DNA of 64,000 nucleotides from Quercus robur (Eukaryota; Streptophyta; Magnoliopsida; Fagales; Fagaceae), in the NCBI RefSeq assembly GCF_932294415.1, contig NC_065541.1, positions 52,120,290 to 52,184,289 on the forward strand, written 5' to 3'. The notes beneath the pieces were generated by a model. It saw nothing but the letters and a program-made list of their open reading frames with translations. It searched no databases and was not told where the DNA came from. This document shows positions 1 through 52,000 of this stretch, one piece after another. Made by a program: the position numbers and the translations under genes. The first letter of the stretch is position 1; every line of letters begins with the position of its first letter.

Positions 1-2293
1 GAGCGTCCTTGGAGACCCCGTCAGCTTTATCCTTCACAATCTGATCTGAAGGCCCAACAGGGGTAGCAACAGCAGGCTGGGCCAAAACAACTCCAGCGTC
101 ATTAAGCAAGGAATCCAAGCTAAGGGGTTCGTCATCTCTGTCAGCGGCAGGAGTCATTGGAACGGAAGTGTCCATGGTGATTCCAGACAGATCCAGCTCC
201 GGATAAGCTAACGACACTTGCTTCAGACAATCATCAAAACCTGCGCCATAGTAATCAGCACAAGAATCGATGAAGGACTGAGTTGTCTTGAACTTTTCAA
301 CTGCGTCAGCCCCAGTCGTCACCACCTGCGCACGCAGAGACGAAACCTCCTCCTCAAGTCTCTTCTGCTCACCCTCTGCTTCTCCTAGCTTCTCCTTCAC
401 GTCCTTCAGGTCTGTGTTTAAGAGACGGACGGCCTCCTTGTATTGCGCCTGCTGATCCATCAGGGTGGAATTGTGCCTCCTCACCCGAGAGACGACGCCT
501 TCTTTGGCCATGCAACGATCTTGGAGTGCTTTAACACGAACCAAGGCCTGAAGGAAATACAACCGTCAGCTATTAAGCAAGGAAAAATATCAGATTAATC
601 AAAGTAGGAAACATACCCGTGCAATATCAAAGAAGGCTGACGCCCCCAGGTCATCCGTCCCAAGCTGAGCACAAGGATCCAGATCCGTCTGTTTGATAAG
701 AGACTCCAGACTCTCGACAGCATGATCCTTGTGAGTCAGCAAGCAACGGGGCCCCTCAATGACGGGACCAGAGGAAGTCATCACTCCTTTCCCAGCACCG
801 TGACTAAGCTTGGGAGGTGACTTCTGGAAGGGCGCGTCCGTAGGAGTGACGGCCACCTTTTTAGAAGGAGGATCATCCTTTCCGTCAGATTTCCTCTTGA
901 TTGAGCCCTTCAAAGAGGAATGAGGAGTTGACGCTCCATCCTTCCCCTTAACTTTATCTTCTTCCTTCTTACGGGCGGCAGCGGCCCTCACCCTTTGCTT
1001 CGCAGCCTCCATCTCTGCAAAAAGAAAGCTAACGGATAAGTAATCTGACGGATGAATAGTAGCAGACGGATTAAATAACGCATTTACTTACGTTTTCTTG
1101 AAAATTCTTCCAACTTCCGTGCTTCGACCGTCGGCTCAGGACCACCACAATACAAATGTAGAGTGTCTAGGGTTATCAAGTCCCTACACCTACGTTGCTC
1201 AAGTGAGATGGTGAGTATCCGACGGATGAAATCCCTCTGTTCGTCAGACACCTCCGGACGAGTGATGGCTGAGACAAAAGGAAACAGACGGTGTTAAAAA
1301 GAGACGGTGAAAATGAAAAGCGACGGTAAAAAGAAAGAGACGGGGGCAACCTGACTCCCTAATATAAGCCCAAGTGTTATCAAAATAACCCCCGGGCAAC
1401 TTATCCCATTCATCCGGGCGACACACCCAGTCCGTCCCTTTAACAAAGAAAAATCTATTTTTCCAATTCCTATTTGAATCCGGCATATCAAACACCAATC
1501 TTAAGTTCTTTTCACGAGGTGCGAAGTGATATGTCCCCTTGGCGGATACTTTGTGCTGGGGTCTGTAGCAGTAAAAGAACTCGTCTAGCGAAAGTTGACG
1601 GTTCCCCCCACTCAAGCGACCCCAAAGAACCTCAGCTCCAATAAAGATCCTCCAGGCATTCGAAGAGATCTGGCTGACGGACAATCCTAAGAAATCCGCC
1701 AGCTGACAGTGTAAAGCCGTCAGTGGGAGCCTAAGGCCAGCTGCGAACATGGCGTCATACATCCCCACATCAGCCGTCCTTCCTGTATAACACTTCTCAT
1801 TCTTTTTAGGGAGACGGAGGGGAATGTGATCCGGGATCTGGAAACGAATACGCAACTCAGAAAAAACTCTGTTGCTCATCTTTGGGAGAAATTTATTGAC
1901 GGCCCACTCCTCTGGAAGGATGAAGGGACGGTTACCTCCAGAACTTCCTGAAGTTCCCTCACTGGACTCTTCGTCATCCTCATCCTCATTACCGTCACTA
2001 CTAACCTCGCTACCGTCACCCCTATCGTCGTCACTATCGATCTCTACGTCACCTTCCTCCCAGTTCCCGTCGTCAACAACTTCCTTGTCGACCCTCTCGA
2101 CCTCAACCTCACTTAACACCTCTTCCCTGACTCCCTCAACACGGTCCTCTACGTCAATACTAAGGGATTGGGCGGACGTTTCTCTTCCTGACGACTCCAA
2201 AAAGCCGTCGGACTCTTGACCTGAGCCAAAGACTTCGTCGTAGCCCGCTCCATCGCGGACTAACGACTGATCACTCGACGCGTCACTTGACAT
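1..2293 (-). CDS. Antisense transposon protein (aORF) of a Tat-type LTR retrotransposon, 5' part, four exons, runs off the window
   Basis: I read four exons on the minus strand: 2293-1351, 1268-1092, 1014-617 and 547-1. They join in one open frame of at least 688 residues, continuing past base 1. All borders are GT-AG. Residues 1-115 are very acidic and Ser-rich. Residues about 118-290 resemble the plant 'putative gypsy-type transposon' domain (Pfam Transposase_28 type), with LRLPLTAL and SNAWRIF blocks. Exon 3 is Lys-rich, and exon 4 is a heptad-rich coiled coil followed by a FIDSCADYYGAGFDDCL block that I associate with this plant transposon family. The gene runs opposite to the LTR at 2743-3302, whose polypurine tract and TATA box both point to the plus strand. 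Tat-lineage elements (Grande, Retand) are known to carry such an extra antisense ORF between pol and the 3' LTR. The function of these proteins is not settled. The domain name rests on memory of the family, not on a search. Confidence 0.8.
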
Positions 2294-2742
2294 CTGACTA
2301 CCTACAAGTGACGGATAAACCCTAAGTTCCTAGACTGACGTTCTCAATAAAAGAAAAAAATTCTTGGGCAAAAATAAAAATAAAAAGGAAGCAGAAAGGA
2401 AAAGGAACTTACAGGTGAAATAGATCTTGAATAAATAAAACAAAGTGTGACGGTATTGGTAAGAGCTGACGGAGCGAATCGTGAGTAAAAGCGACGGGTT
2501 CTCTCTTGAAAGATCTTCGAGGTTGAAATAGCGAAATAAGGCTGTGAGGCGTGATATTTATATAAGGGGAAAACGCACGAAACGCGAGGCGACGCCTGTG
2601 CCAGAAACGAGACCAACTACCGCGCGCCACGTGACCTTGCATTAAATAGCTCGCGGCCCGAGGAATCATTCGTAATTCTTCTTTAGAAATAACTCCACAT
2701 GCTGACGGTTCTAAACGTCAAGCATATAGAGTAGGGGGCAAC
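2294..2742 (-). other. Leader and spacer between the antisense gene and the 3' LTR
   Basis: No coding sequence is seen. The segment would hold the promoter and 5' leader of the antisense gene. It is rich in the hexamer TGACGG. On the plus strand it ends in a G-rich polypurine-like tract at 2731-2738, just before the LTR. Confidence 0.5.
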
Positions 2743-3302: not shown

Positions 3303-3608
3303 GTTGTAACATTAAGTTACAACTAATTTTCACAAGGCAAACCTTTACCCTAATGCTATCAGGAGCACACATCCATAGGAAAGTTTTAATATGAGGGAGA
3401 GTATCAACTTTCCAAACCTAGCTCGCAGAAAAAGGAGTATTACAGTCCTGACTTGAGGCAATTTTATAAGCACTTTTAAAATCAAAAGTCCTTTGAGGAG
3501 ATCCGGCCCAAGCTAGCTTGTCACTTCCTCTACTAGTAATTGTGATGGGAGTGGCCTGTATCATCCTTCTAATTTCCAGGGGAAGATCAAAGGAAATCCT
3601 ATCCCAAT
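3303..3608 (-). pseudogene. LINE reverse-transcriptase C-terminal (zinc-binding) remnant
   Basis: Read on the minus strand, this stretch gives a recognisable plant LINE zf-RVT region: DRISFDLPLEIRRM, then SDKLAWAGSPQRTFDFKSAY, then VWKVDTLPHIKTFLWMCA. An in-frame stop falls before VWK, so the copy is dead. It is cut on the left by the Tat LTR and on the right it changes abruptly, near 3605-3612, into copia gag sequence. Only the tail of the RT protein is present. Confidence 0.7.
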
Positions 3609-4868
3609 CTAGTTGTTAATTGCTGCAACTTATTAATTTTAACAACCTTTGTGCCTTCATGCACAATCTGGAGGATATTCCAAGCAGTATGAGTAACCTC
3701 AACATTAGAGATTCTCTTAAATTCCTCCATAGAAACAGCATTAAAGATAGCATTCATAACTTTGTTATTGAACGTGGCTACTTCTTTTTGAGAAGTTTGC
3801 CACTCACTAACAGGAGTAATGGGCTTCTCCCAACCGTATTCAACGGAATTCCAGACTCTCTCATCAATTGATTTCAGGAATTCTTTCATCCTTACTTTCC
3901 AATAAGCATAATTATTTCCATCAAAGTGAGATGGGATAACAAGAGAGTATCCGTGTTCCATGACAACAAGAGTCAAGGATCAGTTCAGAGATCAAAAGAT
4001 CAACAACAAGAGAGCAACCTGCTCTGATACCACTTGTATGTTTTTAGACCCTTTAAAACACAACCAGATTAATCTAGGTAATTAGCCAAGTAATTACTTA
4101 GTCAAATTAACAAATATAGGTTAACACAAATATATTATATCAATGTAAAGTGCGAAAAATAAAGAACACAAAGATATGATGACCTAGGAAACCAAACTGG
4201 TAAAAACCTGGGGAGGATTTAAGTTAGCTATCCTCAAGGTAAACCTGAATCCACTATGAAAGAATTGAAATTTACACAATAGTGACTTAAACCCCTAACA
4301 TCCTATTGCTACCTCGAGTAGGAAACTTACTACCACAACCACGTGACAACTTCGAGTCCACGGATTACTTCTTTCTTGGATTCCCAGCAAGTACAAGCAC
4401 ACCCGCTTGTGTATCTTTAAGCTCTTAATGCAGCAACTGAATCGATCACCAAGTTCTTGACATAATCTTGAAACTTAGAAACCCTAAGTATGTGTGAAGG
4501 CAACCACCTCTTGATCTCACAAAAGATTCACACACACAACATATGGAGCATCTCCAAAATGTGGTTAGGGTTTTCCCTTTTATACTTAAGACAAAACATA
4601 AAACCTTACACATCAAACGAGCTTGGGCTGAGTTGGAAATTTCTGTAGAAAAACAATCTGCATGACTTTCGATCGATCGAGTCTAATTCTCGATCGATTA
4701 AGCTAGACAGAATTGCACAATAAATTTGCAGTAACTTGATTCCAACTTTACATAAAAAGCAAATACTTTGAGCAAGTCTAAACAAGACTAAACCGTTTTG
4801 ATCATGGTTTGCCAACATTACAAATTGAAGTTCTAATACATTTAAATCAAAAGTCTTAGAACCCAACA
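3599..4868 (-). mobile_element. Truncated Ty1/copia element: 5' LTR, primer-binding site and start of gag
   Basis: On the minus strand the order is LTR (4868-4035), primer-binding site TGGTATCAGAGC (4032-4021, matching the 3' end of initiator Met-tRNA), then gag. The LTR begins TGTTGGGTTC and ends CATACA, is 834 bp long and has a TATAAAAGG box near 4580 in the same direction. The gag frame starts at 3961 (MEHGYSLVIPSHFDG) and runs through a block with YAYWKVRMKEFLKS, the usual copia gag start. It breaks off near residue 120 at the junction with LINE sequence around 3605. Protease, integrase, RT and the 3' LTR are missing, so the element cannot be autonomous. Confidence 0.82.
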
Positions 4869-7276: not shown

Positions 7277-10200
7277 TTATTGTTTCTTGTTTAGATTTTT
7301 CCAATACTCATTTTCCCACATTTCCACTTCCTTTATTGATTTATCCTTTCTCTTGAGAAAACCTTGTAGTGATGAAGGATCATAAGGAGGAGGCAAGGTG
7401 CATGGGGTTAAATCACTGGGAGACTTAACCATGGATTCAACCATGAATTTCTCCCATGTACCTTTCGCAGGGCAAGCCATCATTTCTGAACATAGCTCAA
7501 CTGCTCCTTGAGGTATAGATGGTTTGAATTTCAAGAGCTTTGCATATTCATTTAACAAATGAAACATGTAGTCATATATGTAGTCCATCTTTAGATCCTC
7601 TTGTATGAAGTTGCTTGCTGCCTCTCCTATGGCTTGAGCCTACCAATTTTGTAAAAATAAAAGAGTTGAAAATATAAATCATTTTGTTAATATGAATTTA
7701 AATTAGTGAAAAAAGTGAAAGCATCTTCAAAAACTTAAAAGGTGAAAATAGGTATACATTATACATGAGTCTAGTTGAATCATAACAAAGATACTAGTCA
7801 ATAACCCAATGCACACAAAAAAAGTTTAGCAAAATATGATATTTTTTCTCTTTTATTTATTTTTATTTTTTTAAATATGAGATTTGATAATCATGATAGT
7901 TATTAATAGACATTTATTATGAGTGTTTTTGTATATGAAATTATATATTAATATAATATACTAAGATTCTAATAAAGATAAAGGGTTTAAATATCAAATA
8001 AAATTAAAGTAATTTAAAAATACATACATTAAATGAAATGTAAAATTGTTATGCTTAAAAAAAAAAAAAAAAAAACTAATTTAGCATTATATTATGAGAT
8101 CAACAAAAAGTCAAATGGTTTCAGTTTTATATGTATCATAGATTTTTCAACCCGACCAACTTGCTCAAGTTGAGAAATTTCAACCTAACCCATTATAGTT
8201 TAAAAACTAACCCAACACAACGGAACTTGTAGGAATTGGGTTGGGTCATTGAGTTTGAACAATTTTGTCGGATCTAATAAAAAAATTTATGCTTTCATTC
8301 AACTATGTAAGTTCATTATTTAATAGATAATTGTAATTTATATTATTAGGAGTAATATTCAAGTGTCATCAAACTAGGTCCCAAAATATCAAAATAATTT
8401 AAAGTAATTAACTTAACCTTAAGTCTCAAAATATAAAATAAATCAAACATGAAATTTTAAATTACATATTTTTATTAAAAAAAATTAATAGTGTGTAGGT
8501 TTGGTAAGGTTACTTACGGTTGGAAATTTTTTCAACTTGAATCCCACCCAACTCAAGTTTGGAAAAAAGAAAAAGAAAAAGAAAACAAATCAAGTTATCA
8601 ACCCATGAAATACAATTCAAATCGTTGGGTTAGATTAGTCTGTTAGATGGGTAGATGCACACCCCTTTGTGAAAACATTTTGATAATATGAGAGAGAGAG
8701 AGAGACCTTTTGTGTGTGATTGTTGCCCCATTCCACAGCAAATTTAAGAGAGGTGCACTTGCTATTATCCCTAATGGGCCAGTAGTGCTCCAATGGCACC
8801 ATGCCTCTAATGAAGAAATCATAGTAACGAGGCCTTATGAGCAAGGTCATCGAGTCACATGCTAAAATGTACTTCTCACTTACAGACCATGCCCATCCCT
8901 CTACATAAATCTTATATCTGACACAAATTACACTTTTCTCAATTAAAGAAGGGGAAAAATAAGAATAGTTAAAATGGAAATAAAATAGTTCACTGATCTT
9001 GTTTTTATAACTACCTGTGAGTGCATTGGTCTTCTAAATTTGATTGTTTATAACCCTGTTTAGATTCTTGCAGCCAATCCTGAAATTATAGCACATCATA
9101 CAAAACATTATAATGCAACATGTATACAATAGGAAAATGTTCAACATTTGTGAGTAAATGAGAAAAATGTGTATTAACCTGTGTATATAGGCGAGTGTTC
9201 CAATCATCTTTGTTTGAGACATTGCACTTCAAAAGGTCATTTCTAGTTGGAGCCACGCTTGGATTCCCTTTCCAATAAGCATAGGGTACTCTGTCCTTCC
9301 ATTTAGTTCTTGAGTTGCCTTGTTTTATGTCCTCCAACAAACTTTTCCACGGCCTTATATTGATCTCGGCCCTAACAAAATTAAGTCAAGCCTATGTAAA
9401 AGTTTAATTTCCCCACCCAAAAAAAAAAAAAAAAAAAATTGCTCTTTTAAATTTATATTTTTCTCTAGTACTCGATATATTATTAGATTCAAGAAATGAC
9501 ATTTTAGCCATGAAATGAAGAGGATCATATTTCCCTTTGGGCCAATGTAATAAGCATGATTGATTTACGTACCAGCCCCAAAAAGACCAATCAGGGAACA
9601 CAATATCCAAACTCCACCCATCAGAACAGTAACGAAACAATGGAGGTGGGCCCGCATTTGGGCCCCGAAAGTCCTTAGATGGGACAACAGGGCGATCATC
9701 ACAATCAAACATGAGTTCCAAGTCAGGCAATCTCCCAGGGTACAACCTTAGCAGCTGCAAAATGCCCCACAAGCTGAACATGTCCCTTGTCTGTATCGAC
9801 TGCCTATACTTCTCTACGTAGGCCTTACCGTCTACGATCACAAGCCTGAAATGCGCGGTCCTGCGGGCCCGCTCCACCATGTCTCTCGTGATTCCTGTGT
9901 GCTTCCAGTGCCGTAGATCTTCGTGGATCCAACGGAAGTATGATGGGCATGTTTCGTTTGATGATGATATTGGACGGTCAGGATTATGTGTTGTTGTTGG
10001 GTAGTAGTTTATTGGGCAGGTCTGTGTTTCGTTTCCTTTTGTGCATTTCAGTGGGAATTCTTGCTTTTTTGGTGATTTTTCTGTGGTTTTTATGATTGGT
10101 TTATCAGTGGAAGAAGAACTACCTAAAATTATGGACTGCAAAGCACAAATATAATAAATTATTGGTTTAGCAACTTTATTCTAAAAAAGTATGGTGGCAA

Positions 10201-16187: not shown

Positions 16188-19100
16188 CTATCTGAAAATG
16201 GAGAAGGCTTCATAGTCCTCCGGTTTCAATAGCCAATTGCTAAAAGGCGGTCTTCCTTTAAAAATTTTTGAAGTCAAGTTGTATTCCTGAGCCCTCTCCT
16301 GGAAAGGGATCATTATGTCAAACCAGTTAGAAGATGACAGGTAATATACATCAGTTCATACCAGCTAGCTGAATCCATTTTTCACATCTTCAGATACATC
16401 AAATCAATAAAAATGCTAAATCACAAATACATTGGTTTTTTTTGTGGGTCTAAATCACGAAGTACATTTACTTAAATTTACATCTCACAAGTTTAGGATG
16501 CCAGTTTATGGAACCTTCACTTGCCAAAAAATTACATAACTGATCACATGCTTGCTGCCTTTTTCTCTCATTCACACATGCACATTTCACTACTATATTT
16601 TTATTAACAAAAGTTTCTTCACAAAATAAACATGTTTTTGTAATTAGGCAACCAAATCATGAATATTGTATCCCTGGCATTCTTAACAAAAGTTACCTCT
16701 TTAACATCTTGAGTCTTAAATATGTAGGATGAGGGATAAAATAATGAGAAAAAATATTGAAATAAATTCAGGTGAAATTTGAAAATCAACTCCTTTTTAC
16801 ACATATCCCCATTGATGCAGCCTAAATGCTTCAACTAACTATATTCCTATAAATATTTACAATCCAGATAAAAGAAAAGAGATCGGTACAAAATATAGAG
16901 ATGTTAGCCAAATTTGAATACAAAAACCTAATTAGTAATTTTGTATTTCAAAAAGTGAGAAGATTGGATTTTAAATTAATAATAAAAATATAAAAAGTTC
17001 AAAAGATATTATTTATTTGATATTTAAATATAAGAAAATGTCTCAAATTGTATTGAGCCTGGTTTGCCAAAATAACTGAAGACAACATTTTCTTTTTGTT
17101 AAAAAATCCTGAAATTACCTCATCATCTGGATAACATAATAGTCAATCAAAAAGAGTCTGCAGATCAACATGCAGAAAATTAAAAATATTACCTTGAGTG
17201 CTCGATAAGAAATCTCATTGGCTGGATCTTTGGTTTGGCATTCGTGTCCTAGTGACAAGAAAATCTCCAATAATCGCTTTCTGTGCAATAATAGTGATGA
17301 TGGTGATTATGCTATTTCTACAGGTGAATTTTGTTCAAGCATATTATCAACTTACTTGCACAGAGAGGACTCAGTAGATGGAGAAAGTGCTCCTTTGGCA
17401 GAGGTGCCTTGCTTTCTTCCAGTGGTTCCGAGAATGACTTCATGCAAACCAGCTTCATTCCAACAAATCGAATACCTGACAATCAAAGCATGCAGAAACA
17501 TTTAGCAACCAAACAATTATAGGATAATATGAACTATAACTGGTCAAATTTAATTGAAGTACCCGCATGTTAAAGTGCTCAAAGCTGTTTCAGAATGTTG
17601 AAACTCCTTTGGTGGTATTGGGGCTGCCCAGAATTGTGGCTGCCAGTGTAGTTAGAGTAATGTTGTCATAAGCCTGCTTATTTTCCATTTTACAGAGATA
17701 ATACTCACTTTACAGACCTGGTTCACTTGAAAGGGACTCATTAGCTCACTTGAAAATGGTTGGATTCGATCATATATAGCTCTTTTCAAGCAATCCTCTA
17801 AGAGAAACTTTTCAGGACTGTTAGGGGATCCCCCAACGGTAACAGAAGAAAGGTAAACAGGTTGAAGAAAGTAGGAAAGCAGAGCCCCTGAAATGAGAGA
17901 ATGAATAACCTTTTTATTTTATTCCTCTAATAATAGTGCCCAACAATTTATAAAATTATAGTAAGAAAAACCGTAAACACTTGCCCAAGTGTCTATAACA
18001 AGAAAATAGAAAAACAGGTGATACAATCCTACAAACATGTATGCTCATCTTAACACAGCAACAACTACAATAACAAAGCCTTAGTCCCAAATTTTTAATG
18101 TTGGCTATCAATCCTCAACAAATTAGTCAAGGATATATGCATGTCTTATACGATCCTAAAATTAACACGTTTTACACTGGTACTCACACACACAATCGTA
18201 CAATTTAGATTATAGGAACTATTAATGATATTAAATGGTATCAAGATACTATTTTTAAATTTAAAGAACATCCAAGCCTTAGTCCCAAAATTTTGGGGTC
18301 AATTATGGATGCTCAACAGACTAATTAAGGTAGCAACATGTATCATTTTTCCTTGATTCTATTATATTCAAATTCATACTCTCTGTTATCTCTTTAATTG
18401 ACATGTATTTTTATACTTCTATTAAAGGTTTTTTTAGGTCTTCCTCTATTTTTTTTCATTCCCTCGACTTGAATTAACTCTCTTTTACTCACTAGTGCAT
18501 AAACCACTCTCCTATGCACATGACCAAAGTCCATTTCAAGTGACTTTCACTCATCTTTTCATCAATAGAGGGTCAAGCCTATCTTTAAGCAAAATAGAAA
18601 GCTAAAAATTATCCATGCTTGAACATGGGATCACAGTTAGTTATTAAAGGACAAACCTTGAACTCCCACAACATTCCAACGAGCTATCTTGTCAGAGCAG
18701 CTAACTGACAATGTTGTATCACCACGACCAGGCTTTCTTTGAACCGAGCCAATAAGTTTTGGAGTATCACCTGAAAATGAATCCACTTATACTCTACATT
18801 CAGATAAAATAGTTAGTAATAATTCTTCTCGTAGAAAGATGCAATTGCTACAAGTATGTCATAAAACAGAATTCTGTTATGAAAATATCGAAAGCAACGC
18901 AAGAAGATGAACAAGGAAACCATGTAATTTGAGAAACTAATAACCAAATGATCAGCCCTCTAAATGTCACAAGGTAGAGGTAGAATGAAGGAACTTTCAA
19001 CTCATAATGTTGCTCAAAGTTTGACAGTCCCTCTCTAGTGATATCCTGGTTCTTCTTCTTTTTTTCCTTTTTTCTTTTTCTCTTATGGTAAATAGATACA

Positions 19101-25451: not shown

Positions 25452-26074
25452 GAAATATATAAAATAAATAGTGTTTTCTTTTTTAAAGATAATTAAATTC
25501 AATCATTTAATTCATTAATCAATACAATTATATAGTTGAATTAATGTGCAAAGAACATAAGACATGATCTTGTATGGATTGAAGATGAACTTGAATTTTT
25601 GAGTGATAACTCGAGAAAAGATAAAGAGTTATGTAACTGATAGTTATCTGTTTAATAAAATCTCAATTTTTCCTGTAAAAAACAAAAAATATGCACTAGT
25701 TGAATTGGGTAGATTAAGGTTAAATTTTCAACCAAATAGCTATTTTGACAGATTAGAAAATTTCCTAACTATTATTAAACCACCAAAATCTACAACTATT
25801 ATGTCAATTGAAATATAGCTAGTTTGGATCCAATGAATTGCGTAGGTCAACAAGATACATTTGTTTAGATTGGACATTCTCTAACTAGACCATATATATA
25901 CACTGGAACTTTTTAATGGATCTTTTGGATGGGCATGTTTCAAATAGTTTTTCTTTTTAAATAAAAAAGAAAAGAAAAATAATAACAGATACCAACAAAA
26001 TTGACGCCAAAGCTTTTATATATATATATATAGGCAAGTCGAGTTTGGTCGATTCTTGGTGGGTTTAAAAGATT
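25452..26074. other. Intergenic, no gene recognised
   Basis: A 71-codon open stretch at 25603-25818 (plus) shows no family motif and has AT-driven composition; I do not call it. An (AT)n run lies at 26018-26032. Confidence 0.4.
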
Positions 26075-26869
26075 CAACCTACTGGATTTTTTAAAAAACT
26101 AACTACAAAACCCAAACAATATCATTAGTTAGCAAATGTTTCAAACTAATTTCGTTTATAACAATTCGAGTTCAGTGGACTCGATTTAGGAAAAACTGAT
26201 GTGGAGAAAACATGGAAATCGAGTTCAACGAACTCGGTTTCCATGTACAGAAATCGAGTTCATTGAACTCGATTTTCATGTATGGAAAACGAGTTCAATG
26301 AACTCAATTTCCATGTATTTCCAACGAGTTCATTGAACTCGTTTTCATTGGACTCGAAAGATCAGAAGATGGAAAACTAGTGCCATCAGATCGTGCTCTT
26401 GTTGTTGGGTTTGGCTGCGTCTGCCAGATCGTGCTCTTGTTGTTGCGTCTGCAGAAGATGGACCTTGCCATCAGATCGTGCTCTTGTTGTTGGGTTTGGC
26501 TGCGTCTGCAGAAGATGGACCTTATTAGCTTGTTGTTGGCAAATCAATTTCTTGTGGGTGTGATCGTTTCCATGTATGGAAAACGAGTTTTGGCAAATCA
26601 ATTTCCTGTGGGTGTGATCGTTTCCATGTATGGAAAACAAGTTCAATGAACTCGTTTTCCATACATGGAAATCGAGTTCGTTGAACTCGGTTTCTGTACA
26701 TGGAAACCGAGTTCGTTGAACTCGATTTCCATGTTTTCTCCACCTCAGTTTTTCCTAAATCGAGTCCACTGAGCTCGAATTGTTATAAACGAAATTAGTT
26801 TGAAACATTTGCTAACTAATGATATTGTTTGGGTTTTGTAGTTAGTTTTTAAAAAAATCCCAACCTACT
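26075..26869. mobile_element. Foldback Mutator-like element with perfect 9-bp target-site duplication
   Basis: The element is 26084-26860 (777 bp). It is flanked on both sides by CAACCTACT (26075-26083 and 26861-26869), a perfect 9-bp duplication as made by Mutator-like transposases. The two arms are inverted copies of about 220 bp with only a handful of differences, beginning GGATTTTTTAAAAAACTAAC. Towards the centre each arm contains short palindromes of the type CGAGTTCATTGAACTCG, separated by CCATGTATGGAAA-like spacers. The core (26380-26530) is less AT-rich, with direct repeats of CAGATCGTGCTCTTGTTGTT and GAAGATGGACCTT, and a 56-bp direct repeat at about 26540-26640. It encodes no transposase, so it is non-autonomous. 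High arm identity suggests recent movement. Confidence 0.93.
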
Positions 26870-37878: not shown

Positions 37879-39988
37879 TCAGAGGGGGCAGATGAACGAG
37901 TTTTCTGTCAACATGGCAGAAGGCGTAGAGTACTTATCTATGTCTTCTTCCAGAAAGCTCATGTCATTGTTAATGGGGAAATCCAACAGCATCTGTAATG
38001 CACTGTCCGATGAATCTTCTAATTCATCAGAGCTTGAGGTATCATACCCAACCATCATTTCTTCAGGGTAGGATTTGCAACTCTTGCATTCATTATCTTC
38101 ATTTTGATTGCTTCCCGCAATTGAGGATCCCAGTAAAATGGGGCTAATCTCAGTTGTAATGGCTGAGATTGATCCACATTTTGTGGATGAAGACGCCTGA
38201 GAAACTGGACTCTGGCATGCAGTTTTATCCTCCCTATTGAACTTTCGAAATGATTCTCCAATTTCTGAGTTCCAAATGCGAAGAAAATAGTCAGAATCAG
38301 TTTTTCCCAGAGGAATTGGATTGAAGAGTGATGACTCCCTTGAAAGCCTGGCCTCAGCTTCAAGCCTAGCACTCTCCCATTGTGCCATGTGGCGAGTGAT
38401 AGGGGAGGCAGGTGCTTTTACAGTCATAGAGCAAGAGCTAATGAGCTCATGTGTTTGTGGATCAAGGCCCATGCCCATGAGTCGCTTCTTCAGGTGTGTG
38501 TTCCATAAATTCTTGATCTCATTGTCAGTTCTACCTGGTAGTTGAGAAGCAATAGTAGCCCACCTGAAAATTTTAGCAAGTGAATTAATAGGGCACAAGG
38601 TTTATAATGCAGTTTCCAACAAATTCACTCTGGAATAGTTCTAGTTTGATTATGATATACAGCAGCAGAAGTTCAAGTTCTAGAAGTGTTAGATGTCACA
38701 CGAGAAAATTGATTTTGCTAAAGCATAAAGGGAATGCAGATTAAATTATCATTGTTGCAGCTTGTTTTGATTCTTGAAGGTTGATTGTGTATGCATTACG
38801 AAACAGGACAGTTTCCAAACACCACTGTATTATTAGTTTTAACTTTCGAGTTACATTTACTTTTAATACATGCAGATCAACCAAGCATGTGACTTAATAA
38901 CCCCTCCGAAGACAGTAGTACCCATCAGAATAATGGTCTCCTCAATGTTCTGCCATATGGTTTGTGTACTCTTACTTTTATAGTTTATATAGTTTGAAGT
39001 CCTGCAAATTAGGACTGATTCAAATAGCAAGAGAAGTCATGATTTAAATGCAAGCAAAGGAAGCAAAATGAAGTACCGGTTCCCAAGAATGCCATGAAGC
39101 TGTATGACAAGCTTCTCTTCCTCTTGAGTAAAGGGACCACGTTTAATGTCTGGTCGAAGATAATTTGTCCACCTAAGCCGGCAACTCTTCCCGCAGCGAA
39201 GAAGACCTGTACAAAAAGGAAACCCATGATTTATAAAACTAGGGAGTTGATGTTGCCGTGGATATCTTGAACAGTCTAGTAAATTTACCCTATAACGTTG
39301 CAGATTGGCTTTCAATAGGAAGCACTATCATTGGATTTTCAAAATACATACTGAGAAATTAGAGACATACAAACAACTATAATGAACTTACAGTAACACA
39401 AGCAAACATAGTAATCACATCGAAAGACAAAAATAAAAAAGACAAGTTCATACAAAGCCAGTTTTCTCAAATTCTAGATAGATTCTAGTACAACACAAGC
39501 AGAGCAAGGAACATTCAGTAAAACAGAAGTCAAACTATGGCAATGATTCGCATTTTCAACAACACCAAGGACATATCAAATTTAAACGCGATGAGTTGAC
39601 TTAGTTAGATGTTCGATACGAAGTCAAGTCTCAAAGCAAGTATATAGAATCTTACTAGCACCTTGAAAGTGCTGAAATGCTTTGGAAAGAAAAAAAAATG
39701 ACTTGGAAGTTGTTTTTCTTGCTCTCAGACTCAGAGCACAACAAATGCAAAAATGAATCAACTTTTACTTCCAAAGCAAGGAAAGCGTTTCCACAAGTTT
39801 CATCAGGCAATGACTGAAAAATAGTACCACCATAAAGTAGGAACACTCAAACCTGCAAGCTTGGGGAGAGACCTCCAGCTCCCATGCCCACCATTTTTCT
39901 TGATAAAATCAACAAGAATCTGATCCTCCTCAGGAGTCCATGGCCCTTTCTTCAAACCCTTTTTGTCACAACAAGGTGCCCTTCCCAT
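37879..39988 (-). CDS. R2R3-MYB transcription factor, MYB17-like, three exons
   Basis: Exons: 39988-39853, 39206-39077 and 38563-37879. They join into 316 residues plus stop; the intron positions are the two common to most plant R2R3-MYB genes. R2 (about 14-66) has W17, W38 and W58. R3 (about 69-117) has the usual hydrophobic residue in place of the first Trp (F71), then W90 and W109. The R3 end [20 protein letters not shown] and the following MGLDPQTHE fit best with Arabidopsis MYB17-like proteins (subgroup 9 neighbours, linked to meristem identity), but this rests on memory. The C-terminus is Ser- and acid-rich, as in activation domains. I see no bHLH-binding motif in R3. Oddity: the R2 helix region reads KKNGGHGSW, giving 20 residues between the first two Trp instead of the usual 19. 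Confidence 0.93.
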
Positions 39989-49002: not shown

Positions 49003-52000
49003 TTATCGGCAATAAATTGCCTGATCAATGTGTGGTGGAATTTGCTTTATCTCGGTCCCAAGTTCTTGCTCAATCCTGTACCTATATGGGAAGAATATAT
49101 ATGGAAATAAATAAATCCTGCAACCACCAATAAATAACTTCCAGTAAACATAAATATAATAACATAAAACAGACATACAAGTTAAAGCGGTCCTCATATG
49201 TGATCAAATTCACAGCTAAACCAAGGTGCCCAAACCTTCCAGATCGACCAACCTGCATGTAAGCTATCAGTAAGCATAGAACACACAACTGGATAAAACT
49301 ACATGAGAAAACTATATTCTACATACCCTGTGCAGATATGTTTCTGAGTTCTTTGGAAAATCAAAGTTAATAACAACATTGACCGCTTGAATATCTATTC
49401 CCCTTGTAAATAGATCTGCCATTTCACCCCACCAAAAACATATATATTAGAAGAAACACTAAATAATTGAAGTACAAAAAAAATGGCAAACAATATATAA
49501 GAAAAAGTAAAGAATCAAATTTGTTGCAAATTCAGCCAACATATGATATTTAGGATGGGTCATATTAAATCTAACTGCTGACAACACAAATGTCATTTTA
49601 CCTTCCAGCATATTCACCAATTAAATGAAATCATCACCCCCACCCCCCCCGCCCCCCCAAAAAAAAAAAAAACCCTTTTCAACCCAAAAAAAAGAATAAT
49701 GCAGGGGGAGAACTAACTGCTGCATATCACAACTGACACCAAGTCTATTACATCTCTCTAAAAACCAAGGTTCAATAAGATGAGACTAGATCTGAAAAGA
49801 ACTTAAGTATACACAGGTCCAATCAGTACAAATATAGGCTTCTCATCAATCGAAAAACAAACATGGAAGCGAAAATACTTTGAAAGTTATGAAACATAGA
49901 GAAAAAATCATGTTGGTTGGAACAATTAACAGAAAAATAGGGAATGGAGGGAAATGGTCAGCCACATGACTGAATGATTAAAATATCATACCAGTACAAA
50001 CAAGATTCCTGCATGCACCATTGCGGAAATCATGAAACACTCTGTTACGATGGTCTTGCAGCATCTTTGCATGAATATAAAAACAAGAATAGCCAAGCTC
50101 TGTAATTTTCTTGGCCAACAGTTCAACCCGATTCACTGAATTGCAGAAGATGATTGATTGGTTTATTTGCAGCTGGGAGAAAAAAAATCCATTATTATAT
50201 CATATTCATATATAGAAGGAAACAAAGTATGCACGCATAAATAGTTCATATGAAACAAACCTTGGAGAACAGAGTGTTTAGGCAGTGGACTTTCTGTCTT
50301 TCTTCAACGAAAGCATAAAATTGTGTGATACCCTTTAGAGTAAGCTCATCCATAAGGTTAATTACATAAGGTTTTTGAAGATATCTGTCTTTAAAGTCCT
50401 TGACTGTAACAGGAAATGTTGCTGAAAACATCAAAATTTGACGACTTGTAGGCAAAAATCGAATCAGCTGCTCTACTGAAGGTTGAAATTCCGGGGACAA
50501 AAGCTTATCAGCCTAGAGACATTGATGAATACATCTTTAGAAGCTTGCAGTTCATGACGTTTAAACCAACCAAATTGCATGTAAAAGAATAATCAAATAA
50601 GAACACCACCAATGTCATAATTTTATTCCACAAGTCAGATTTGAACTAGAACAAACAACTAAAGAGGCCAGGAGGAACTGTACATAATCAGGGATCAAAA
50701 TAAAATAAAATTCACTTCACAATCATATGTGTAAATGTTCACCATAAAGAAGCTACATCAAGTAGGAATTAAAGCATTTTATTTCCGAAGTAGCTGGTAG
50801 AATCTGAGCCATTTGAAATATTCAAAACTGTAACACTTATAAATGTTTGGATATTTTGAATATGCAAAACTGCTACTTCACCTATCAACTTGACAAAAAC
50901 GTGCTGCACATTTATATATGTTCAGATACATTGAATACAATTATAGAAAAAGTATAAAATAAAATAAAATAAAAAAGGATGAAATAAGCTTGAGAAAACC
51001 ATCACATGCATTTTTTTAGACAGAAAATGAACAGTAAATAAAAAAACTATTGCCAACAAAACTGAAACATCAAGTATTTACCTCATCCATAACAAGCATA
51101 GAACAGTCCTTCAAAATGCAAACACCTTTTTTTGCAAGATCTAAGATTCTTCCTGGTGTTCCGACAAGTAAATGAACTGGTTGATATAAACGCATGATGT
51201 CATCCTTTAAACTAGTACCACCTGTAGTAACCATAACTTGGATTTTCAAATGCTTGCCAAGCTCTTTACACACTTGTGATGTTTGAAGAGCTAACTCTCG
51301 AGTTGGAACAAGAATAACAACTGCATGAAAAATAACATTTCAAGTAAATACACAAAATGAAGACAATTCAACCATCAAAATAAATTAAAAATCTGTAATA
51401 GCTCAAGCTGTGCGATGAAGATGACAATAGCAATCTCAATCATGCATCAAAGGTTCCACATTCTTGTCTTAAATAACCATGATAGCCATTGTCATTTGAC
51501 CGACACTAAAAAATGCTTTGCAAGTAGATGTATTCAGATACTGATGATCAAACCTTGAATAACATTGTTATCTTGATCAATCTTTTCCAATGCAGGAATG
51601 CAAAACGCAGCCGTCTTCCCAGTTCCATTTTTTGCTCTAGCAAGAATATCACTCCCAGTTAAAGCAATTGGAATACTTTCTTCCTGAATAGGAGATGGTC
51701 TTTCGAACCCCTTCTCGTATATTCCCATAAGCAACTCACGCTTCAGAAAGTAATCCTCAAATTCATTTCCCTTAGTTGCAGTCACATCCTGATGGAAAGA
51801 TTAATATGAACTTATCAGGCTAATTTGAAGATTATAATCTATAATCTATATGGTCAACCAATAAACAGTACCATTCATTATCCCTTTTTGCTAAATACAA
51901 AAAATAAGAATTACCAGATCCAATAACTTCAACAAAGAAAAAAAGGCTTATTATTAGTGCATAGCATATGTTGTTCAGTGCCAGAAAACCATGTGACAAG

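Follow-up and report, generated by a model that had tools for sequence, protein, structure and literature searches.

Terminal arms that are modular or built from repeats are, going by the published descriptions, already known from three transposon families: MuTAnT, Tm1, and Tetris. The FARE elements of Arabidopsis were reportedly described by Windsor and Waddell in 2000. Among Mutator-like elements (MULEs), some lack long terminal inverted repeats (TIRs), and a 9-bp target-site duplication (TSD) is not exclusive to the group. In general, MULEs have TSDs of 8-11 bp, while their TIRs range from 14 to 500 bp in one survey (PMC6446971). MuTAnT, a MULE family of Medicago truncatula, combines 9-nt TSDs with long modular foldback TIRs (PMC4486113), and modules are also described for the Drosophila element Foldback4 (PMC2955051); SIRC repeats are the subject of PMC10342631. 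In the available sections of a review of Arabidopsis transposable elements (PMC7385966) the terms 'FARE' and 'foldback' do not occur.

The locus compared here with these systems lies in a window of 64,000 nucleotides of Quercus robur (the whole stretch of DNA that was analysed), and we regard it as likely to be a non-autonomous foldback transposon of the Mutator-like type. The element measures 777 bp (26084-26860) and is placed between perfect 9-bp direct repeats, CAACCTACT. The preliminary description had claimed a perfect 9-bp target duplication, and both copies are found exactly at the positions given there. The features of the locus, with the strand where one applies, are as follows:

26075..26083: left copy of the TSD, CAACCTACT, a perfect 9-bp match to the right copy
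26084..26314, plus strand: left terminal inverted arm, 231 bp, starting with GGATTTTTT
26167..26183: first palindrome of the left arm counted from its outer end, CGAGTTCAGTGGACTCG, starting 53 bp ahead of the next palindrome
26215..26346: left array, period 35 bp, 3.8 copies, 82% matches
26340..26356: degraded palindrome with 5 of 8 pairs kept, which overlaps the left array at its inner end
26381..26523: core tandem repeats, in our reading three copies of a unit of about 57 bp, two of them shortened
26536..26643: 54-bp tandem duplication (two copies, 96%) that takes in a spacer of the arm type and a partial palindrome
26621..26732: right array, period 35 bp, 3.2 copies, 83% matches
26630..26860, minus strand: right terminal inverted arm, starting with GGATTTTTT on that strand
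26761..26777: first palindrome of the right arm counted from its outer end, with 6 of 8 pairs kept
26861..26869: right copy of the TSD, CAACCTACT, a perfect 9-bp match to the left copy

The perfect 9-bp TSD falls within the 8-11 bp of MULEs (typically 9), and the inverted repeats are long, as is usual for the group: over 231 bp the two arms are complementary at 220 positions, with 11 mismatches and no gaps. The expectation of arms of about 220 bp with very few differences was thus sound. Among the 4,596 pairs of 9-bp direct repeats in the window (69-6000 bp apart, low-complexity words excluded), only one, that of the present element, immediately encloses an inverted repeat (of 80% or more over 30 bp); no such pair was found among 13,278 pairs of 8 bp and 1,794 pairs of 10 bp in the window, nor among the 9-bp pairs of 20 randomised windows (first-order Markov). 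This control, together with the shuffle counts of palindromes given below, leads us to reject a chance origin of the structure. With both TSD and TIR present, the element arrived as a transposon. Nesting within an older element finds no support, as the 700-bp flanks, when joined, have one inverted 9-mer match across the site; their direct 9-mer matches, among the matches listed, are mainly TA runs. A (TA)8 run is situated at 26017-26032, 42 bp outside the left TSD, and the insertion was not into this run.

As in foldback elements, the arms make up the majority of the sequence (462 of 777 bp), form a long stem-loop, and contain tandem repeats, here the 35-bp arrays. From the outside inwards, each arm is organised in about 83 bp, a first palindrome, a 36-nt spacer, and the array of 35-bp period, whose unit joins a 17-bp palindrome, CGAGTTCANTGAACTCG, to an 18-nt, partly palindromic spacer. 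Palindromes of the CGAGTTCANTGAACTCG type (at most 3 mismatches) occur at 10 sites in the window, all 10 within the element, against a mean of 0.08 and a maximum of 2 in shuffled sequence; the exact form CGAGTTCATTGAACTCG is found at two sites (26255 and 26325). All eight pairs are intact in two of these ten palindromes, one pair is broken in six, two pairs in one, and three pairs in one. The best form of the spacer, ATTTCCATGTATGGAAAA (minus strand, 26655-26672), is nearly palindromic; in part of the spacers a non-symmetric ACAG variant occurs. The preliminary description had serial palindromes separated by a palindrome-like spacer: the palindromes stand, while the exact spacer CCATGTATGGAAA is limited to three places, all in the element (26570 and 26624 on the plus strand, 26656-26668 on the minus strand), and is absent from every spacer of the left arm. 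Since palindrome and spacer are both palindromic or nearly so, the array resembles its own reverse complement, with agreement at 24 to 32 of 35 positions in the seven units.

The history of the arrays can be read in part from the pairing of units between the arms. Units L2 and R2 agree at 35 of 35 positions; L3 and R3 agree at 31 of 35, the best match for both; L4 and R4 agree at 30 of 35, the best match for R4 and, for L4, a tie with three others; and for unit L5 the ungapped arm offers no counterpart. As the best or joint best matches between the arms are those in register, the array is no younger than the present pair of arms. Differences between the arms amount to 8 of 99 positions in the array versus 3 of 132 in the remainder (Fisher p = 0.059), and the centre of R3 is CAACG, as in L2 and R2, that of L3 being CATTG; the higher divergence of the array and the centre of R3 are in line with exchange among units. 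With a substitution rate of 7e-9 per site per year, the outer 132 bp, which are 2.3% different, would be roughly 1.6 million years old, a rough figure that derives from three differences and may be affected by gene conversion. Where the other units have CG, the palindrome lying furthest inside the paired arms has CA on the left and TG on the right, which is the kind of change given by deamination of methylated CpG, although two sites are too few to serve as a test.

Direct repeats in the centre had also been predicted, and they are present: within 26381-26523, called by TRF with a period of 38, 3.0 copies, and 17% indels, stretches of 44 bp and of 23 bp are repeated at 100%, and the 54-bp duplication follows at 96%. 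Tandem duplication explains much of the core. The presence of three tandem-repeat systems in 777 bp suggests that slippage or template switching took place in DNA that folds strongly, and, as the core tandem repeats also indicate, replication slippage, aided by the palindromes of the array, is the probable way in which the 35-bp array grew. GC content in the core (26366-26565) is 0.48 versus 0.33 for the window. Capture of a host gene in the core finds no support apart from the higher GC: none of the three ORFs tested in the element has a Pfam match, which is also what a non-autonomous copy would show. The three long ORFs that cross the element read through repeats, have no Pfam match, and are not taken as genes. 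A blastn comparison of the element, and of three pieces taken from it, against the remainder of the window yielded nothing beyond matches of 11-24 bp (best E 0.06).

The element contains 31 CpGs, giving an observed/expected ratio of 1.09 versus 0.51 for the window, and 20 of the 31 lie in its ten palindromes; as the ratio falls to 0.59 with the palindromes masked, it is they that carry the excess over the window average. The ratio of the element is reached by 113 of 6,323 windows of the same size (step 10), 105 of them away from the element, and the CpG level, though above the window average, is not exceptional. The concentration of CpGs in palindromes fits a reading in which the arrays are functional docking arrays, for a dimeric transposase or an anti-silencing protein of the VANC type, that persist for this reason and keep the ends accessible. 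VANC targets are dense short motifs spread by the formation of tandem repeats (PMC5735166; VANC motifs are also treated in PMC10398659), and in our arrays 4 of 17 columns are variable in the palindrome versus 12 of 18 in the spacer (Fisher p = 0.018). Without the degenerate unit L5, however, the counts become 4 of 17 versus 7 of 18 (p = 0.47); selection on the palindromes was therefore set aside as suggestive, its signal being gone once one unit is dropped. Within the 17-bp palindrome none of the seven units has a two-sided (compensatory) change, while the column pair 9/27, just outside it, is seen both as T-A and as A-T. Also against docking are the 105 windows clear of the element that match its CpG ratio, the divergence between the arms, which is greater in the array than in the remainder, and the single orientation of the VANC21 motifs (PMC5735166), in whose paper the term 'palindrom' does not occur in the sections available. 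Taken together, a docking role is unlikely. A wider proposal, that the double-palindrome array binds a dimeric protein of the family and, each unit being nearly its own mirror image, would work in either orientation, so that the gene-less element borrows mobility and protection from silencing at the same time as its hairpin transcript feeds silencing, is very doubtful.

With regard to its class, the element is assigned to the MULEs from its anatomy, as neither a transposase nor a parent nor a second copy turned up in the 64-kb window, the plant sequence searched. No transposase is encoded by the ORFs of the window that were scanned against Pfam (20 of 203), and neither a second copy nor similar sequence occurs elsewhere in the 64 kb. 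Three patterns of the element had no exact match in viral contigs, where none was expected. The 17-mer palindrome was found in at least 118 stretches of bacterial genomes, in 80 of them, among the matches listed, at a single site; such matches are expected by chance, since 16 fixed bases in 257 billion bases would give about 60 at equal base frequencies. Six short words of the element do not occur in the literature searched; the terminal sequence GGATTTTTT could be assigned to no known family, and a name in repeat databases is possible. The anatomy would also fit a foldback of another cut-and-paste superfamily with 8-9 bp duplications (P-like, as Galileo, hAT, or Merlin) in which repeat-built arms arose by convergence. 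The duplications of hAT and P elements are of 8 bp. Several lineages may give rise to foldbacks, the majority of which seem to be Mutator, with exceptions (PMC4079207), and the element holds no visible transposase that would decide; yet a duplication of exactly 9 bp combined with arms of 231 bp is what MULEs usually show, and a different superfamily is decidedly unlikely. On the MULE reading, the insertion at this site would be the work of a transposase encoded elsewhere, acting in trans through recognition of the arms.

The Pfam scan covered 20 of the 203 stop-to-stop ORFs of at least 60 amino acids in the window; 13 of the 20 were without a match at E 0.01, and two of the seven matching ORFs had matches only below the curated cut-offs. 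The surroundings of the element comprise:

2-565, minus strand: weak coiled-coil matches in the Pfam scan
3602-3979, minus strand: similarity to copia-type gag, just below the Pfam cut-offs
9407-10180, minus strand: Glyco_transf_90 match (Pfam, E 3.7e-65)
17655-17918, minus strand: A_deamin match, a fragment of the adenosine-deaminase (editase) domain (E 5.6e-13)
37882-38601 and 39040-39324, minus strand: Myb DNA-binding matches (Pfam) in two ORFs
50249-50512: DEAD match (Pfam)

The two Myb ORFs are probably exons of one Myb gene, and the A_deamin ORF, about 8 kb from the element, perhaps belongs to a tRNA deaminase gene. The first 4 kb of the window are GC-rich (0.47) and hold the gag-like and coiled-coil ORFs as well as an ORF without a Pfam match (1247-2329, minus strand); this part perhaps represents the remains of an LTR retrotransposon.

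Folded as RNA, the element forms one hairpin at -454.8 kcal/mol, versus a shuffle mean of -191.8 (sd 7.7, n = 20; z = -34), and folded as DNA it reaches -285.4 versus -83.1 (20 shuffles). The computed stem is near-perfect over about 230 bp, in agreement with the long, almost perfect hairpin that had been foreseen for a transcript; likewise the foldback anatomy claimed at the outset is recovered in the long inverted arms and the single-hairpin fold, and it is consistent with a non-autonomous MULE. The left array alone (26196-26365) folds at -81.4 versus -37.9 (200 shuffles) and, being far below its shuffles, can fold on itself too. These energies indicate a capacity to fold rather than expression. 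A read-through transcript would give a hairpin of about 230 bp, well suited to processing by Dicer-like enzymes and to RNA-directed DNA methylation; from the predicted fold, an output of small RNA is plausible. If transcribed, the hairpin could bring about silencing of related elements, the effect that Mu killer has in maize. The same near-perfect hairpin could be taken for a small-RNA locus under selection (a MIRNA, or a locus that silences its own family in the manner of Mu killer) rather than for simply a transposon. Mu killer, an inverted derivative of MuDR, silences MuDR, and hairpin RNA was proposed as the cause, but the new model of the same paper invokes shorter antisense transcripts incapable of forming large hairpins (PMC3440606). 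As the TSD and TIR mark the arrival of a transposon, and as no Rfam family reached threshold in the window (weak evidence), such a locus is very unlikely. A local inverted duplication or an assembly error would account for the inverted structure and nothing beyond, and is extremely improbable given that a perfect 9-bp direct repeat flanks the arms precisely and that the arms differ from each other at 11 positions, differences not expected of a simple assembly copy.

Most likely, therefore, the element is an ordinary gene-less foldback MULE with palindromic arrays whose repeat pattern is unusually tidy: the MULE-type foldback way of working is well supported, and membership as such is unproven. 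It is a further clear case of foldback arms made of short symmetric repeats, and, with repeats that are palindromic and contain CpGs, its family would be a good place to tell by-products of slippage from binding arrays in arms.

Compared by description, the element resembles MuTAnT in being short and non-autonomous, with near-identical long modular TIRs (144 bp in a 292-bp MuTAnT element) and a 9-nt TSD, but MuTAnT prefers TA microsatellites, whereas the target here is CAACCTACT with the (TA)8 run 42 bp off, and its complete copies have between zero and four G at the end (PMC4486113). With FARE, as described in PMC4486113, it shares the form of plant foldbacks with long palindromic repeats at both ends, which are classed as MULEs there. 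Plant MULEs with tandem TIRs have also gained duplicated sequence at their ends, replication slippage being among the mechanisms discussed, albeit without clear support from the authors' own phylogeny; their duplicated stretches are at least 100 bp, versus a unit of 35 bp here (PMC3310237). The VANC-type target arrays of VANDAL have a published motif in one orientation, whereas here the motif is palindromic and the array alone is seen. Tm1, a Mutator/foldback family of root-knot nematodes, has a 9-bp TSD and composite TIRs with an internal repeat of about 14 bp in varying number, but it is an animal family with asymmetric 7-bp end motifs, and its 14-bp repeat contrasts with the 35-bp double palindrome here (PMC3169594). 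Tetris of Drosophila virilis has the same general plan, with an outer flanking domain, tandem repeats in the TIRs, a variable middle, a TSD of 8-10 bp, and no conserved ORF, although its repeat unit is about 220 bp and its TIRs extend up to 1,735 bp (PMC4079207).
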